From Burkholderiaceae bacterium (GTDB lineage Bacteria > Pseudomonadota > Gammaproteobacteria > Burkholderiales > Burkholderiaceae_D), in NCBI GenBank assembly GCA_018262475.1, contig JAGSYW010000002.1:1-42983 (forward strand): a DNA stretch of 42,983 nucleotides, written 5' to 3'. The position numbers and the translations under genes were made by a program. The notes beneath the pieces are model-generated. The model saw only the letters and a list, made by a program, of their open reading frames with translations. It was not told the origin of the DNA and searched no databases. Shown here in pieces: positions 15,239 to 20,728 of this stretch. Position 1 is the first letter of the stretch. Each line of letters begins with the position of its first letter.

Positions 15239-15253
15239 TGAGAATTATTCTCG
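15239..15253. promoter_or_regulatory. Fur box of the feo operon
   Basis: TGAGAATTATTCTCG: 7-1-7 inverted repeat whose inner 13 bp are a perfect palindrome, matching the Fur consensus half-site TGATAAT in most positions. It covers the -35 region of the feo promoter, so repression by Fe-Fur is expected. Confidence 0.85.
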
Positions 15254-15404: not shown

Positions 15405-15845
15405 ATGAAAAAATCCCGCCAGGTGCCGCTGATCCTGCTCGGCAGTCTTTCGCTCTTCGTCGGCTGCAGCCAGAGCGAACAAGCCACGCAAACTGAAATC
15501 CGGCAGCATACGTATGCCAGCCGCGAAGACTGCCTGAACGACTGGGGCCGCGACGAACGCGACTGCCAGCCTGAAAAATCCGGCCGCGGCTATCGCGGCC
15601 CGCGCTATTACTGGCATCACACCGGCGGCTATCCGATTGCAATTGACCCCGACGGCAGTTCGCGCCCGCTGCCGAATTCGCCTCTGCGTGCTGGAACTGC
15701 GACCAAAGCGACCGGTACGCACACGATGCTCGGCCATGTCCGCGGCGCGACTTCCATCGGCAAGACGGCCGGACATATCGGCGGCGGCCATACCAGCCGC
15801 GGCGGATTCGGCGGCACCGCGCACGGCATTTCCGGCGGAGGCTGA
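15405..15845 (+). CDS. DUF1190 (YgiB/YjfM-like) lipoprotein with Gly-rich tail
   Basis: 146 residues. Lipoprotein signal MKKSRQVPLILLGSLSLFVGC, acylated at Cys21. YASREDCLNDWGRDERDCQ (about 37-54) matches the YATREDC motif of E. coli YgiB and its two conserved cysteines. The tail is glycine-rich (RGGFGGTAHGISGGG) and ends in three glycines, as the E. coli proteins end in Gly-Gly. Function unknown in the family. ATG at 15405 behind AAGGA. It is 2 bp from the ATP-grasp gene that follows, the same pairing as E. coli ygiB-ygiC and yjfM-yjfC. The exposed Gly tail could be a substrate of that ligase (inference). Confidence 0.85.
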   Translation: MKKSRQVPLILLGSLSLFVGCSQSEQATQTEIRQHTYASREDCLNDWGRDERDCQPEKSGRGYRGPRYYWHHTGGYPIAIDPDGSSRPLPNSPLRAGTATKATGTHTMLGHVRGATSIGKTAGHIGGGHTSRGGFGGTAHGISGGG

Positions 15846-15847
15846 AC

Positions 15848-16972
15848 ATGCAGCGTCTAGAAATCAAACCGCGCCCGGATTACGCCCGCAAGCTGGAAAA
15901 TATTGGTCTGTCATTTCATGCGCTCGACAATTACTGGAACGAAAACGTCTGCTACCGCTTCACTGCGGCCGAAGTGGATGAACTGGAAGCTGCCACCGAA
16001 GATCTGCACAAAATGTGCCTGGATGCAGTGCAATATGTGATCGAGCACAACCGTTTTGCCGACCTCGGCATTCCGCCTGCGTTCTGGCAACCGATTGCGG
16101 CATCGTTCGCGCGCCGCGATTTCCACCTGTATGGCCGGTTCGATTTTGCTTACGACGGCCAATCGCCGCCGAAGCTGCTCGAATACAACGCCGACACGCC
16201 GACTTCATTGCTCGAAGCCGCGGTCGCGCAGTGGTACTGGCTGGAAGAGAAATTTCCGCAGGCCGACCAGTTCAACTCGCTGCACGAAAAACTGGTCGCG
16301 CGCTGGAAACAGTTCGGCCCCGGCATCGACACCATCCACTTCGCCTCGCTGGCTGAAAACGAGGAAGACTGGGTCTGCGCCACCTATCTGATGGATACCG
16401 CCGCCCAAGCCGGGTTCGAAGTGAGGCATATTTTCGTCGAAGACATCGGCTGGTCGGACGAGCGGCGCACCTTCGTCGATCTGGACGAACAGCCCATCGC
16501 CGCGCTGTTCAAGCTTTACCCGTGGGAATTCATGCTGCGCGAGGAATTCGGCGCGCATGTGGCCGAAGCCAGAACGCGCTTCATCGAACCGCTGTGGAAG
16601 GCGGTGCTGTCGTGCAAGGGGCTGCTGCCAATCCTGTGGGAAATGTACCCCAATCACCCGAACCTGCTGCCCGCCTATTTCGAACCGGGCAAACTGTCGT
16701 CGTATGCGAAAAAGCCGCTGTATTCGCGCGAAGGCGCAAACATCGAACTGGTCGAAAACGGCAAGACCATCGCGCACGACGGCGGCCCGTATGGCGCCGA
16801 AGGCCATGTCTATCAGGCGCTGTGCCGGCTGAAAAGCCACGACGGCCGTTACCCGGTCGTCGGCTGCTGGGTGGTGCATGACAGCGCCGCCGGCATGGGC
16901 ATCCGCGAAGACGGGCAGCCGATCACGACCAACCTGAGCAATTTTGTTCCGCATTACTTTGACAAGGAATAA
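15848..16972 (+). CDS. Glutathionylspermidine synthase-family ATP-grasp ligase (YgiC/YjfC-like)
   Basis: 374-residue soluble ATP-grasp carboxylate-amine ligase lacking the amidase half of E. coli Gss. Family landmarks: RPDYARKLENIGLSFH at the N-terminus, FHLYGRFDFAYDGQSPPKLLEYNADTPTSLLE (with the conserved R, E and N-x-D of the nucleotide/metal site), LFKLYPWEFMLREEFG, LLPILWEMYPNHPNLLPAYFE, KPLYSREGANI and a final GSWVV-like VGCWVVHDSAAGMGIREDGQPITTNLSNFVPHYF. It should join a carboxylate to an amine using ATP. The true substrates of YgiC/YjfC proteins are not settled. Start 2 bp after the lipoprotein stop; DUF350 gene 2 bp after its own stop. Confidence 0.9.
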   Translation: MQRLEIKPRPDYARKLENIGLSFHALDNYWNENVCYRFTAAEVDELEAATEDLHKMCLDAVQYVIEHNRFADLGIPPAFWQPIAASFARRDFHLYGRFDFAYDGQSPPKLLEYNADTPTSLLEAAVAQWYWLEEKFPQADQFNSLHEKLVARWKQFGPGIDTIHFASLAENEEDWVCATYLMDTAAQAGFEVRHIFVEDIGWSDERRTFVDLDEQPIAALFKLYPWEFMLREEFGAHVAEARTRFIEPLWKAVLSCKGLLPILWEMYPNHPNLLPAYFEPGKLSSYAKKPLYSREGANIELVENGKTIAHDGGPYGAEGHVYQALCRLKSHDGRYPVVGCWVVHDSAAGMGIREDGQPITTNLSNFVPHYFDKE

Positions 16973-16974
16973 CC

Positions 16975-17352
16975 ATGGACGCCATCGTCGCCTTCCTCAG
17001 CTATTTCGCCGCCGCCATCGTGCTGCTGGCCGTGTTCATGTTCATTTACGCCAAAATCACGCCCTACGATGAATTCGCCGAAATCGCGAACAACAACATC
17101 GCAGCCGCCATCACCTTCGGCGGCGCCATCCTCGGCTTCACGCTGCCGCTGGCTTCAGCCATTTTCTTCACCCACGACATCATCGAGATGGCGCTCTGGG
17201 CCGCGATCACCGGCATCGTGCAGCTGATCGTATTCCGCCTGCTGCGACGTTTCGTGCCGGACATCGAAGCTGGTCACATCGCGCCTGCGATCCTGCTGTT
17301 TACGATGTCGGTCGCGATCGGTATCCTGAACGCGATCTGCATCAGCTACTGA
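16975..17352 (+). CDS. DUF350 membrane protein (YjfL-like)
   Basis: 125 residues with four predicted membrane helices (about 5-28, 40-62, 68-88, 100-122). The DUF350 repeat signature appears as ITPYDEFAEIANNNIAAAITFGGAILGFTLPLASAI. Family function is unknown; it co-occurs with YjfC-type ATP-grasp ligases and DUF1190 lipoproteins, as here. The 2-bp gap to the ligase gene and 12-bp gap to dacB place it inside one transcript. Confidence 0.88.
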   Translation: MDAIVAFLSYFAAAIVLLAVFMFIYAKITPYDEFAEIANNNIAAAITFGGAILGFTLPLASAIFFTHDIIEMALWAAITGIVQLIVFRLLRRFVPDIEAGHIAPAILLFTMSVAIGILNAICISY

Positions 17353-17364
17353 TTCCTTCCGCAC

Positions 17365-18783
17365 ATGAATATTTCCGCCCCTGCCCGTCGCCTGCTCGCC
17401 ACCCTGCTGCTCCTGCTTCCCATCTGCGCGCTGGCGCAACAGGGGCTGCCGTATGAAGTCGAAAGCGAACTTCGGCGCGCAAAAATTCCAGTGAAGGCAA
17501 CTGCCACCTTGGTGCAGGAGGTAGGCAGCCGCGCGGCGTGGGTATCAATCAACGCCAAACAGCCGTTCAGTCCGGCGTCAACCATGAAGCTGGTAACAAC
17601 CAATGCCGCGCTGGAACTGCTTGGCCCGACCTACAGCTGGAAAACGCAAGTGCTGGCGACCGGCCGCCTGACAGGCGGCACATTGCATGGCGACCTGATC
17701 ATCCGCGGCAGTGGCGATCCGAAATTCCTGATGGAACACCTGTGGCTGCTGCTGCGCCAGGTGCGCGCGCAAGGCATCCGCGACATCCGCGGCCAACTGG
17801 TGCTGGACCGCACCGCCTTCGCCGACATGCCGTTCGATGCATCGGCATTCGACAGCGCGCCTGACAAGGCCTACAACGCCGGGCCGGATGCGCTGCTGCT
17901 GAACTACCACACGCTGCAATTCGGCTTCGCGCCAAACGAAGCCGGCAATGGCGTGCGGGTGCGGCTCGACCCGCCGCTGGCGGACTTTAAGGTGAGCGCA
18001 CCGGCACTGGCCGATGGCGACTGCAATGGCTGGAAACAGCAACTGGCGCCCGATGTTGACGCTAGCGGCGCGCGCTTCAATGGCAGCTATCCCGCCACCT
18101 GCGGCGACAAAACCTGGTTTGTGCATGCGCACGCGCTGACGCCGGATCGCTATTTCGCCGCGGTTTTCCGCCAGATGTGGCAAGACGCTGGCGGCAGCAT
18201 CAATGGCGAAGTCAAAAGCGGTATCACGCCGCCCAACGCACGCCTGGTCACTGAATGGACGTCGCCCGCGGTGCCGGAAATCATCCGCGACATCAACAAA
18301 TTCAGCAACAACGTGATGGCGCGCCAACTTCTGCTGGCGCTCGCGTTGCAGAACGGCGCTCCGGCACGACCGGAACGGGGTGCGGACGCAGTCAAGACAT
18401 GGCTAGCCGCCAAAGGCATTGCCGCGCCGGAACTGGTGATTGAAAACGGCTCCGGCCTGTCACGCAGCGAACGCATTTCGGCCGGCACGCTGGGCAAGAT
18501 GCTGCAGGCAACCTGGCGTTCGCCGCTGATGCCGGAATTCATTTCATCGCTACCGCTGGCCGGGCTGGACGGCACGATGCGTTCGCGCGTGCAGGAAAAA
18601 GGCGTTGCCGGCCATGCACACATCAAGACCGGCTCACTGCGAAACGTGCGCGCCATAGCCGGTTACGTGCTGGCGGCATCCGGCAAGCGCTATGTGGTGG
18701 TCTGCTTCATCAACCATCCGAACGCCGCCGCCGGACGCCCGGCGCTGGATGCGTTGCTGGAATGGGTGCACACCAGCGGCTGA
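17365..18783 (+). CDS. dacB: D-alanyl-D-alanine carboxypeptidase/endopeptidase (PBP4)
   Basis: 472-residue periplasmic peptidase S13 that trims and cleaves D-Ala-containing cross-links in peptidoglycan. Signal peptide (LLATLLLLLPICALAQ, cleavage about residue 24). The three penicillin-binding motifs are present: STMK with catalytic Ser72 and Lys75, SNN (in NKFSNNVMARQ) and KTG (HIKTGSLRNV). The large insertion between motifs 1 and 2 that marks class C PBPs is present. Lies 12 bp after the DUF350 gene, so likely read with the lipoprotein-ligase operon, linking that operon with the envelope. Confidence 0.93.
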   Translation: MNISAPARRLLATLLLLLPICALAQQGLPYEVESELRRAKIPVKATATLVQEVGSRAAWVSINAKQPFSPASTMKLVTTNAALELLGPTYSWKTQVLATGRLTGGTLHGDLIIRGSGDPKFLMEHLWLLLRQVRAQGIRDIRGQLVLDRTAFADMPFDASAFDSAPDKAYNAGPDALLLNYHTLQFGFAPNEAGNGVRVRLDPPLADFKVSAPALADGDCNGWKQQLAPDVDASGARFNGSYPATCGDKTWFVHAHALTPDRYFAAVFRQMWQDAGGSINGEVKSGITPPNARLVTEWTSPAVPEIIRDINKFSNNVMARQLLLALALQNGAPARPERGADAVKTWLAAKGIAAPELVIENGSGLSRSERISAGTLGKMLQATWRSPLMPEFISSLPLAGLDGTMRSRVQEKGVAGHAHIKTGSLRNVRAIAGYVLAASGKRYVVVCFINHPNAAAGRPALDALLEWVHTSG

Positions 18784-19006: not shown

Positions 19007-20728
19007 TCAAGCCGCCGCCTTGCGCGACTTCTTGGCGCCGAACATCCTTTCGTCGGCGGTTTTCAGCAGCGTTTCCGTATCGCTGCCATCTTCAGGGAAA
19101 ATCGCCCAGCCGATGGAAATCCTGGCATCGATCTCGCCCTGCGCCAGCGCGACCTTCTGTTCGACACTGGCGCGGATGTTATCGATCGCCACTGCCACCT
19201 GCGCATAGGTGCAGACATCGCCCAGCAACACGACGAATTCATCGCCGCCGTAGCGGACGACGATATCGGACGAACGGGTCGCCGCCTTCAGCCGTTCCGA
19301 CACCGCCTGCAACACCCGGTCGCCAGCGTCATGACCAAAATGGTCATTGACTGGCTTGAACTCGTCGAGATCGATGAACAGCAAGGCAAATGCTGGCGGC
19401 TGCTCTGATTCTCCGGCTATTTGCCGCAGCAGGCGCATCCGGGTAAACAGGAATTCCCGGTTGAACACGCCAGTCAGCTTGTCGGTACGCAAGTTGTGCT
19501 CCATTTCATTGAACGAGCGCGCCAGTTGTCCGATTTCATCGCGGCGGTTGATGTCGAGATCGCGCACCGGCTCGCCAATGCCGATCTTTTGCGCCGCAGC
19601 GTTCAGCGCGAGAATGTCACGCAACACGCGGTTGATGAGCAGCATTCCGATCAACAGCGCCAGCCCAACGCATACGATGGCAAAGCCAATGCTGGCATTG
19701 AAACTGGTCGTCACGCCGCCAAGAAAATCGGAGCGCGGCGCGACCACAACCGTCACCCAATCCAGCCCGTGCTTTTCCCCCAGCGGCGAAGCGGCCACTT
19801 CGACCATGCCGGCAGCGGTTTTCAGACTGGCTGAAAACGGTTCCTGCACGCCCTTGCCCGCCTGAGCTTTCTGCGCTTTCCACGCCATCACGCTTTCGGC
19901 GGCAGATTTGATCAGCGGCGATTTCATCTCGCTCGCAAGCAGGCGTTGCGGCTGGATGCCTTGCTGCTCAAGCAATTCCTCGTTATTCGAGCTAGCGATC
20001 ATCTGCCCTTTGCCATCCATCACGAACGCAATGCCGTTCTTGCTGATCGTCAGGCCATCGAGGAACTCGGTCAGCGCCTTCATCTCTACATCGACCGCAA
20101 CCACGCCCGCGACGGCCCCGTCCTCCTTGCGTATCGATTTAGCCACGGTGATCGTCGGCAATTTTGAGGTGAAATCACGGTATACCGCAGACCATACCGG
20201 CGCGGCCTGCCGCGCGGCCGGTGCATACCACGGCCGCAAACGGGGATCGTACTCATCTGTTCTTAGCACGGCTGTCCGTACGCCCGGGCCGGGGACGGCA
20301 TAGATCGTGCGTTTCGCTGCATTCGGTTCCCGCAGATACAGCTCGTTGATGTAACCGTTGATGCGGTACAGGCCAATGAAACGGCCATCGGCGCCACCAA
20401 AATAGGTGTACATGCCGGCTTTCTGATACAGGCCGGAAATGGCCCAGATGCGATGCTCCAGCCAGGAAAGGTCATTCGAGAAAGACTGTCCGGCCTCCTT
20501 CAAGCCAGGATCGGGGGCGAAATTGTTGAGCAAGTTCATCGCCGCGTCCAGATGCTGGCCGGTCGCTTCGTTGATGCGCAGCGAGACATCGGTCAGAACG
20601 CGACTAGTAAGCGAATTGACCGCTTTCGAGCCTGCGTCGAACAGCATCCAGCCGACGGTCGCCGGTACCAGCAGCACCAGAAAAACGAACGGCAAGACCA
20701 GCTGATATCTCAACGAAAACTTTTGCAT
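19007..20728 (-). CDS. Membrane diguanylate cyclase with Cache sensor and HAMP
   Basis: 573 residues. Helix 1 (about 10-28), a periplasmic double-Cache region (about 35-330, with YINELYLREPNAAKRTIYAVPGPGVRT and RLRPWYAPAARQAAPVWSAVYRDF), helix 2 (about 345-368), a HAMP linker (LRDILALNAAAQKIGIGEPVRDLDINRRDEIGQLARSFN) and a GGDEF domain. The active loop is intact (RYGGDEFVVLL), and RSSD five residues before it is an inhibitory I-site. It should make c-di-GMP in response to a periplasmic small molecule; the ligand is unknown. ATG at 20728, AAGGAAATG-like site directly upstream. No EAL domain. Confidence 0.92.
   Translation of the reverse strand: MQKFSLRYQLVLPFVFLVLLVPATVGWMLFDAGSKAVNSLTSRVLTDVSLRINEATGQHLDAAMNLLNNFAPDPGLKEAGQSFSNDLSWLEHRIWAISGLYQKAGMYTYFGGADGRFIGLYRINGYINELYLREPNAAKRTIYAVPGPGVRTAVLRTDEYDPRLRPWYAPAARQAAPVWSAVYRDFTSKLPTITVAKSIRKEDGAVAGVVAVDVEMKALTEFLDGLTISKNGIAFVMDGKGQMIASSNNEELLEQQGIQPQRLLASEMKSPLIKSAAESVMAWKAQKAQAGKGVQEPFSASLKTAAGMVEVAASPLGEKHGLDWVTVVVAPRSDFLGGVTTSFNASIGFAIVCVGLALLIGMLLINRVLRDILALNAAAQKIGIGEPVRDLDINRRDEIGQLARSFNEMEHNLRTDKLTGVFNREFLFTRMRLLRQIAGESEQPPAFALLFIDLDEFKPVNDHFGHDAGDRVLQAVSERLKAATRSSDIVVRYGGDEFVVLLGDVCTYAQVAVAIDNIRASVEQKVALAQGEIDARISIGWAIFPEDGSDTETLLKTADERMFGAKKSRKAAA

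Follow-up and report, generated by a model that had tools for sequence, protein, structure and literature searches.

A candidate protein substrate, marked by an RGGFG tail, for a stand-alone ATP-grasp ligase of a Burkholderiaceae bacterium

What does a small ATP-grasp ligase act on when its gene directly follows that of a Gly-tailed lipoprotein? The question is raised by a locus in a 42,983-nucleotide stretch of DNA from a Burkholderiaceae bacterium (assembly GCA_018262475.1, contig JAGSYW010000002.1, positions 1 to 42,983), here called the window. A lipoprotein gene, a ligase gene and the gene of a DUF350 membrane protein follow one another, with gaps of 2 bp between lipoprotein and ligase and 2 bp between ligase and DUF350 (Table 1). 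This packing was described in an initial annotation of the window, and the coordinates of the open reading frames (ORFs) bear it out. The same annotation suggested that the free C-terminal glycine of the lipoprotein is the carboxylate that the ligase modifies, perhaps with a polyamine. We draw on gene order, on a tail motif tied to the ligase, on the enzyme's active-site signature and on the linkage of relatives of the locus to homospermidine synthase (hss). In our reading, the ligase would recognise the lipoprotein tail and amidate its C-terminus with a polyamine before export, here probably homospermidine. As judged from sequence, we put the probability of this reading at roughly 0.68.

A stand-alone ligase and a tailed lipoprotein

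The ligase had been described as glutathionylspermidine synthase-like, and its place in the GSP_synth family is confirmed (PF03738, 510 bits against a cut-off of 29.3). Its nearest solved relatives are Escherichia coli YgiC (2.8e-102) and YjfC (6.2e-95), both of which RefSeq names peptide--spermidine ligase. A 2023 paper in Biochemistry by Pederick on YgiC and YjfC reportedly accords with that name, going by its title alone. For these E. coli relatives, the statement that the substrates are unknown is thus out of date, at least going by these names and that title. Residues D116, T117, P118 and T119 are invariant, and the resulting DTPT signature is common to the window ligase, YgiC and YjfC. 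TPT follows the E-x-N-x-D motif in 190 of the 191 stand-alone ligases of the survey described below. At the same site, the 20 low-scoring loci of that survey carry SAS (15) or HRP (1), or are unmatched (4). By kinship and by the DTPT signature in its sequence, the ligase is of the YgiC/YjfC type. The bifunctional glutathionylspermidine synthetase/amidase was considered and ruled out: the ligase scores 148 bits against a cut-off of 882 with the NCBIfam equivalog NF007801, no amidase domain appears in the Pfam scan of its 374 residues, and DTPT stands where glutathionylspermidine synthetase (Gss) has DSAS. The same replacement disfavours glutathione as the acid partner.

The upstream protein has a lipobox, LFVGC, near its N-terminus, which marks it as a bacterial lipoprotein by sequence and regular expression alone, and its C-terminus reads ...TSRGGFGGTAHGISGGG. 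It was first labelled a DUF1190 lipoprotein. Its DUF1190 score (PF06693) is 7.2 bits, under the Pfam gathering cut-off of 22, and a genome-wide DUF1190 search gave no match. When an alignment of its relatives was compared by hhalign with one of DUF1190 proteins, the two matched with a probability of 98.8% (E 1.2e-16); the match spans 50 columns, the signal peptide among them. We therefore call the lipoprotein DUF1190-related and not a Pfam member, so that the kinship stands and the membership does not. Its GISGGG end resembles those of E. coli YgiB (SRSMGG) and YjfM (RGHWGG), all three closing in Gly-Gly as had been claimed.

The tails of such proteins were surveyed beside 211 ligases, 191 stand-alone and 20 low-scoring; L026 was dropped for lack of a ligase match. 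Sixteen of the low scorers combine their low score with an open frame of 620 aa or longer and are termed long-frame Gss on that basis, with no amidase test. The ORF upstream of each ligase was picked blind to its tail, and its last 45 residues were scanned for a loose motif, [RKHSAF][GSQYR]G[FLYW][GFTSK], and a strict form, [RK][GS]GF[GF]. The loose motif occurs in 161 of 190 upstream ORFs, against a mean of 21 and a maximum of 35 in shuffled tails; for the strict form the count is 127 of 190, against a mean of 0.76 and a maximum of 3. Among 3400 other ORFs used as a control, 52 carry the loose motif, 10 the strict form and 33 a Gly-Gly end. Upstream ORFs of Gss-like loci lack the motif (0/14), and those of named loci have it in 73 of 80 cases, spanning 12 named phyla. 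The association of tail motif and ligase exceeds chance, both against shuffled tails and against other ORFs. Gly-Gly closes 104 of the 190 upstream ORFs and 99 of the 161 that bear the motif. What the tails have in common is the RGGFG-like motif, not Gly-Gly. A search of the open-access literature found no paper naming an RGGFG tail in this setting.

When any ORF on either strand was admitted, 181 of the 191 stand-alone loci had a tail ORF, by a criterion that combines the loose motif with limits set for the final residue and for Asp/Glu, and that lets in chance matches. Strict tails were counted in 154, using [RK][GSQ]G[FL][GF], a bit wider than the strict form that gave 127. In 147 cases a strict tail ORF lies no more than 400 bp from a ligase and on its strand, against 4 elsewhere in 1.41 Mb, and none was found in the 16 long-frame Gss loci. 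A tail ORF of any form occurs in four of the 20 low-scoring loci. One of these, L197, has a true DUF1190 tail beside a divergent ligase of single-enzyme length and is among the four low scorers outside long-frame Gss; the other three matches look like chance.

The heads that precede the tail differ. By loose regular expressions, the 161 motif-bearing ORFs comprise 88 DUF1190-like heads, 27 of a CVD..C kind, some of which are misfiled DUF1190-like heads, and 46 others. That one tail is found on such different heads next to a single kind of enzyme suggests that the tail is what the enzyme handles. At L063, L067, L086 and further loci, a two-cysteine head, CVD...D..C, bears the tail.

Tail statistics were drawn from 89 non-redundant strict tails. 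A median of 11 residues follows the motif (10 in the window lipoprotein). Gly occupies position -2 in 79% of tails, and position -1 is Gly in 55%, Ser in 33% and Glu in 9%. Both a Gly-Gly end (48/89; permuted mean 8.7, maximum 20) and a last residue drawn from G, S, A, E or T (88/89; permuted mean 66.6, maximum 77) exceed the permuted values. Acidic residues (Asp and Glu) are scarce in the tail, at 1.0% against 10.2% for the remainder of the protein, and neither occurs before the last residue in 76 of the 89 tails. In most tails, the C-terminal carboxylate is thus the sole acid.

On a tree of 131 ligases, from which ends other than G, S and E were dropped, the end type changes at least 25 times (shuffled mean 42.8), so that types are clustered; between 9 (G) and 11 (S) changes are forced by strongly supported branches. 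Gly-Gly as the determinant was rejected on these changes and on the many linked tails that end in Ser, Glu, Ala or Thr. Covariation of the terminal residue with ligase columns offered just nine independent pairs on supported branches, and we draw nothing from it. Of the original proposal, the carboxylate of a ligase-linked tail is retained, mostly as the only acid of that tail, whereas Gly-Gly proves too narrow a definition (99/161 above and 19/42 below).

DUF1190 proteins with and without a nearby ligase were compared in two genome samples. In the first, 397 genomes of the phylum, of which 71 had a DUF1190 match, proteins near a ligase and not directly upstream of it have both the motif and a Gly-Gly end in 6 of 6 cases; for the other near-ligase proteins of this sample, most loci are counted within the 191-locus survey. 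The second sample covered 318 genomes of the class of genome G574, of which 52 had a match. It yielded 45 newly fetched proteins, 42 of them near a ligase. All 42 carry the loose motif, 33 the strict form, and 19 end in Gly-Gly. DUF1190-core proteins with no ligase near have neither the motif (0/8) nor a Gly-Gly end (0/8). These eight, from G502, G714, G759, G574 (three from this one genome), G727 (a second copy) and G980, include two doubtful cases: the G759 reading stops at a TGA inside the Pfam match, and G980, 3.3 kb from a contig end, may have the wrong frame for its tail. With both removed, the motif count is 0/6. Proteins of G925 and G1014, which keep the motif in genomes without a ligase, were excluded because their genes lie near contig ends. 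The initial annotation had framed this comparison around C-terminal glycine; it separates the two groups by motif (42/42 against 0/8), and Gly-Gly accounts for fewer than half of the linked tails. Ligase-distant DUF1190-core proteins without the motif can be seen at L246 to L248 (G574), L249 (G727) and L243 (G502). The G502 tail carries a decayed-looking KKGGVGG.

The amine and the proposed reaction

A homologue of hss lies directly upstream of the lipoprotein gene in the three closest named relatives of the locus (L027, L028 and L029) and in the viral loci L265, L267 (Achromobacter phage Motura) and L340. The window's genome has an hss homologue elsewhere (39% identity, E 2.9e-77). It also has a gene of the ornithine/arginine decarboxylase family, and Spermine_synth gave three weaker matches there. 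Saccharopine-dehydrogenase domains were found by Pfam in the four hss-like proteins scanned, and the L340 protein has a weak NCBIfam match to carboxynorspermidine synthase (18 against 800 bits). A polyamine is the likely amine, as first proposed, because the E. coli relatives are named peptide--spermidine ligase and because hss stands upstream in the closest relatives.

The name homospermidine synthase rests on the Motura annotation and on the passages of PMC9992855 that deal with it. That paper (2023, PNAS) noted an hss-gss cluster in Motura and inferred glutathionylhomospermidine as the product. The word lipoprotein does not occur in its text. The Motura stretch resembles the window module in holding a tailed lipoprotein, a ligase and DUF350, with hss in the same stretch, and we think that the acid partner there is the lipoprotein tail.

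For the window, we infer the reaction, its timing, the amine and a role in the envelope as follows. The cytoplasmic ligase would bind the R-G-G-F-G tail of the newly made, unexported lipoprotein and use ATP to activate its C-terminal carboxylate. ATP-grasp enzymes activate a carboxylate as an acyl phosphate. The activated carboxylate would then form an amide with one of the primary amines of a polyamine; the likeliest polyamine is homospermidine in this clade and spermidine in E. coli. Export and lipidation would follow, so that the finished envelope protein would bear a lipid on one end and a cationic polyamine on the other. Through its cationic end it may be tethered to anionic surfaces of the envelope or to DUF350 in the membrane. 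Precedent for the chemistry comes from eukaryotes, where the C-terminal glycine carboxylates of SUMO and ubiquitin are joined to spermidine at the cost of ATP, as the relevant part of PMC12270671 describes; unlike the reaction proposed here, that conjugation is catalysed by E1 and E2 enzymes.

The DUF350 protein (PF03994, 113 bits against a cut-off of 26) is predicted to form four helices (mean pLDDT 95.1). No informative fold relatives of this model were found: the best Foldseek E was 1.1 and the best Z 7.4, a value common for helical bundles. A YjfL search over flanks of unequal length placed DUF350 in 87 of the 191 stand-alone loci. Our own profile, applied to the 63 named loci that have 3 kb or more on each side, found it in 26. 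Since the two counts differ in flanks and in method, neither should be taken as a firm rate. The suggested membrane partner is therefore frequent but not universal.

Weighing the readings

Several observations weigh against the proposed reaction. The terminal residue of linked tails is variable, being Gly, Ser or Glu and also Ala or Thr. Ten of the 191 loci have no tail ORF by the survey criterion, several of them carrying decayed or variant motifs, and the other 181 include chance matches such as L136. A loose chance match was also seen in two of the 16 long-frame Gss loci (L199 and L024). Linkage to hss was found in only four of 191 bacterial loci (L027, L028, L029 and L181) and three of 80 viral ones, and five of six hss-like proteins fall in no NCBIfam family. 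The proposed order of events also carries a demand, since an enzyme that needs ATP and works in the cytoplasm has to gain access to the tail while the lipoprotein is still unexported.

The ligase could instead make free conjugates, glutathionyl- or peptidyl-polyamines, with the lipoprotein as a co-regulated envelope partner whose tail serves another purpose. Glutathionylspermidine synthase is the name of its Pfam family, and glutathionylhomospermidine is what PMC9992855, in its treatment of hss-gss clusters, infers. A table in a G3 paper that cites Sui 2012 lists YgiC as lacking Gss activity. The window ligase does share the GSP_synth family with Gss, but at 374 aa it leaves no room for an amidase domain, it has DTPT for DSAS, and it has a tailed lipoprotein as partner, whereas strict tails are missing from all 16 long-frame Gss loci. 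The tail motif is likewise missing from DUF1190 proteins with no ligase nearby. Taken together, these points make free conjugates an unlikely product.

It is less likely again that the tail C-terminus is the substrate and the amine something other than a polyamine, such as an amino acid, a peptidoglycan amine or another protein. ATP-grasp ligases in general accept varied amines, most loci had no hss or speA-E match in the stretch examined, and a cell-wall gene, dacB, adjoins the module in this genus. That last hint weakens outside the genus, where the nearest relatives show no dacB-like neighbour, and the hss linkage in those relatives and in phages argues for a polyamine, as does the naming of the E. 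coli enzymes. Cleavage of the tail, with modification and export of the released peptide in the manner of ribosomally made modified peptides, we regard as very improbable. The tail does look precursor-like, in that a variable stretch of low complexity comes after a conserved motif, and in Ochrobactrum phage OC the lipoprotein and ligase genes are separated by one for a SprT-like metallopeptidase. The tail is attached to an anchored head, with a lipobox or, in some cases, a membrane helix, and phage OC apart, no annotated protease was found beside the pair in the annotated phage stretches or at the E. coli loci.

Neighbouring genes, known operons and phages

The proposal that amidation by the ligase caps the lipoprotein tail can be set against the wider locus (Table 1). 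Upstream, in divergent orientation, are feoA and feoB; the genes adjoining the module are feoA on one side and dacB on the other. The initial annotation had the operon running on into dacB. The adjacency, with a 12-bp gap after DUF350, is there, and in a sister genome (G002) dacB likewise lies downstream after 10 bp. No dacB-like neighbour was seen in the unannotated ORF lists of L027, L028 and L029, and dacB is probably a same-direction, genus-level neighbour outside the module. As a functional partner it was set aside, since it is conserved next to the module at genus level only.

Table 1. Features of the locus, in window positions
Feature	Position	Strand	Basis
Lipoprotein, DUF1190-related head (YASREDC...C) and Gly/Ser-rich tail; proposed substrate	15405..15845	+	ORF, 146 aa
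Stand-alone ATP-grasp ligase, YgiC/YjfC type, EYNADTPTSL signature	15848..16972	+	ORF, 374 aa; Pfam
DUF350 four-helix membrane protein; frequent partner	16975..17352	+	ORF, 125 aa; Pfam
dacB-like D-Ala-D-Ala carboxypeptidase (S13, Peptidase_S13); genus-level neighbour	17365..18783	+	Pfam
RGGFG tail motif, lipoprotein residues 132-136; proposed recognition element	15798..15812	+	10 residues before stop
C-terminal GISGGG; carboxylate proposed to be amidated	15825..15842	+	Translation; terminal-residue statistics
GAGAATTATTCTC palindrome, between the divergent feoA and lipoprotein genes	15240..15252	.	Exact match

The perfect palindrome GAGAATTATTCTC, which we take to be Fur-box-like, is the sole match in the window at up to one mismatch (shuffled-sequence mean 0.07). 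It lies between feoA and the lipoprotein gene; iron control of the module is possible. Past dacB, on the minus strand at 19007-20728, lies a gene for a Cache-HAMP-GGDEF diguanylate cyclase.

Comparable gene sets are known. In E. coli ygiB-ygiC and yjfLMC, a lipoprotein with an RGGFG or RGGYG tail and a Gly-Gly end is encoded directly upstream of the ligase, yjfLMC includes DUF350, and both ligases carry DTPT. The window differs in its shorter, sub-cut-off lipoprotein, in the place of DUF350 after the ligase, in having no adjacent PspA-type gene and in the linkage of its closest relatives to hss. The third-group CesT/Tir-PspA operons, as presented in the relevant part of PMC11237479, also combine an ATP-grasp ligase, DUF350 and a DUF1190 lipoprotein; that part lists the operon and discusses covalent modifications and membrane stability in general terms, without mentioning a tail motif or naming the lipoprotein as a substrate. 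Unlike those operons, the window region yielded neither PspA nor a potassium channel nor DUF2491 when seven of its proteins were scanned with Pfam. No YjfJ or YjfI homologue matched at L001 within 1.5-kb flanks, and on this count the locus does not qualify as a PSP operon.

The ligase is patchily distributed. Counting the window's own genome, four of 60 related genomes carry it; within the window's genus the count is two of three, and among 33 others of the family it is none (G001-G035 for genus and family). Identity to viral relatives reaches 59-68%, and the module may have been moved by phage. By tblastn, the ligase occurs in 138 records of a phage collection, some of which, L260 among them, look bacterial. 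Seven of eight inspected phage loci have a tailed lipoprotein near (one of the seven, L260, looks like bacterial DNA); in DSS3_VP1 none was found within 4 kb upstream of the ligase. In IMG/VR, a tailed lipoprotein lies no further than 4 kb from the ligase at 66 of 80 loci, in a set that holds near-duplicates (L287, L290, L291, L292 and L305), loci with little upstream room (L295, L298, L300 and L307) and one locus, L298, that is probably host DNA. In PHROGs the ligase is classed as an auxiliary gene, and the phage lipoprotein and DUF350 families are entered as unknown.

Viral stretches that combine an hss homologue, a tailed lipoprotein and the ligase are L257 2303-5896 (phage Motura), L340 and L265, and Pfam shows DUF350 in those of Motura and L340. 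The SprT-like gene of phage OC is at L258 3515-4000. T4-like phages also have tailed lipoprotein and ligase loci (L262, L263 and L264). In Aeromonas phage 44RR2.8t the pair lies near rI and a Band_7/SPFH gene, and in Acinetobacter phage Acj61 rIIA is close to the module. A role of the T4-like phage module in lysis timing or superinfection exclusion is possible.

A broader reading, which we hold tentatively and at somewhat less than even odds, extends polyamination to bacteria at large and to phages: anchored envelope proteins with unlike heads would share the RGGFG tag and receive a spermidine or homospermidine cap from a dedicated ATP-grasp ligase before export, and phages, which would bring the full gene set and some of them their own hss, would use this to remodel the host envelope. 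If the proposed reaction holds, an enzyme family known from 12 or more phyla and from many phages would gain a substrate and a recognition tag, and the Gly-rich tails of DUF1190 and related lipoproteins would be explained. Phage genes annotated as glutathionylspermidine synthase would be read differently. The link of polyamines to envelope stress would gain a direct mechanism, and polyamine capping would be a little-studied mode of altering the cell envelope.

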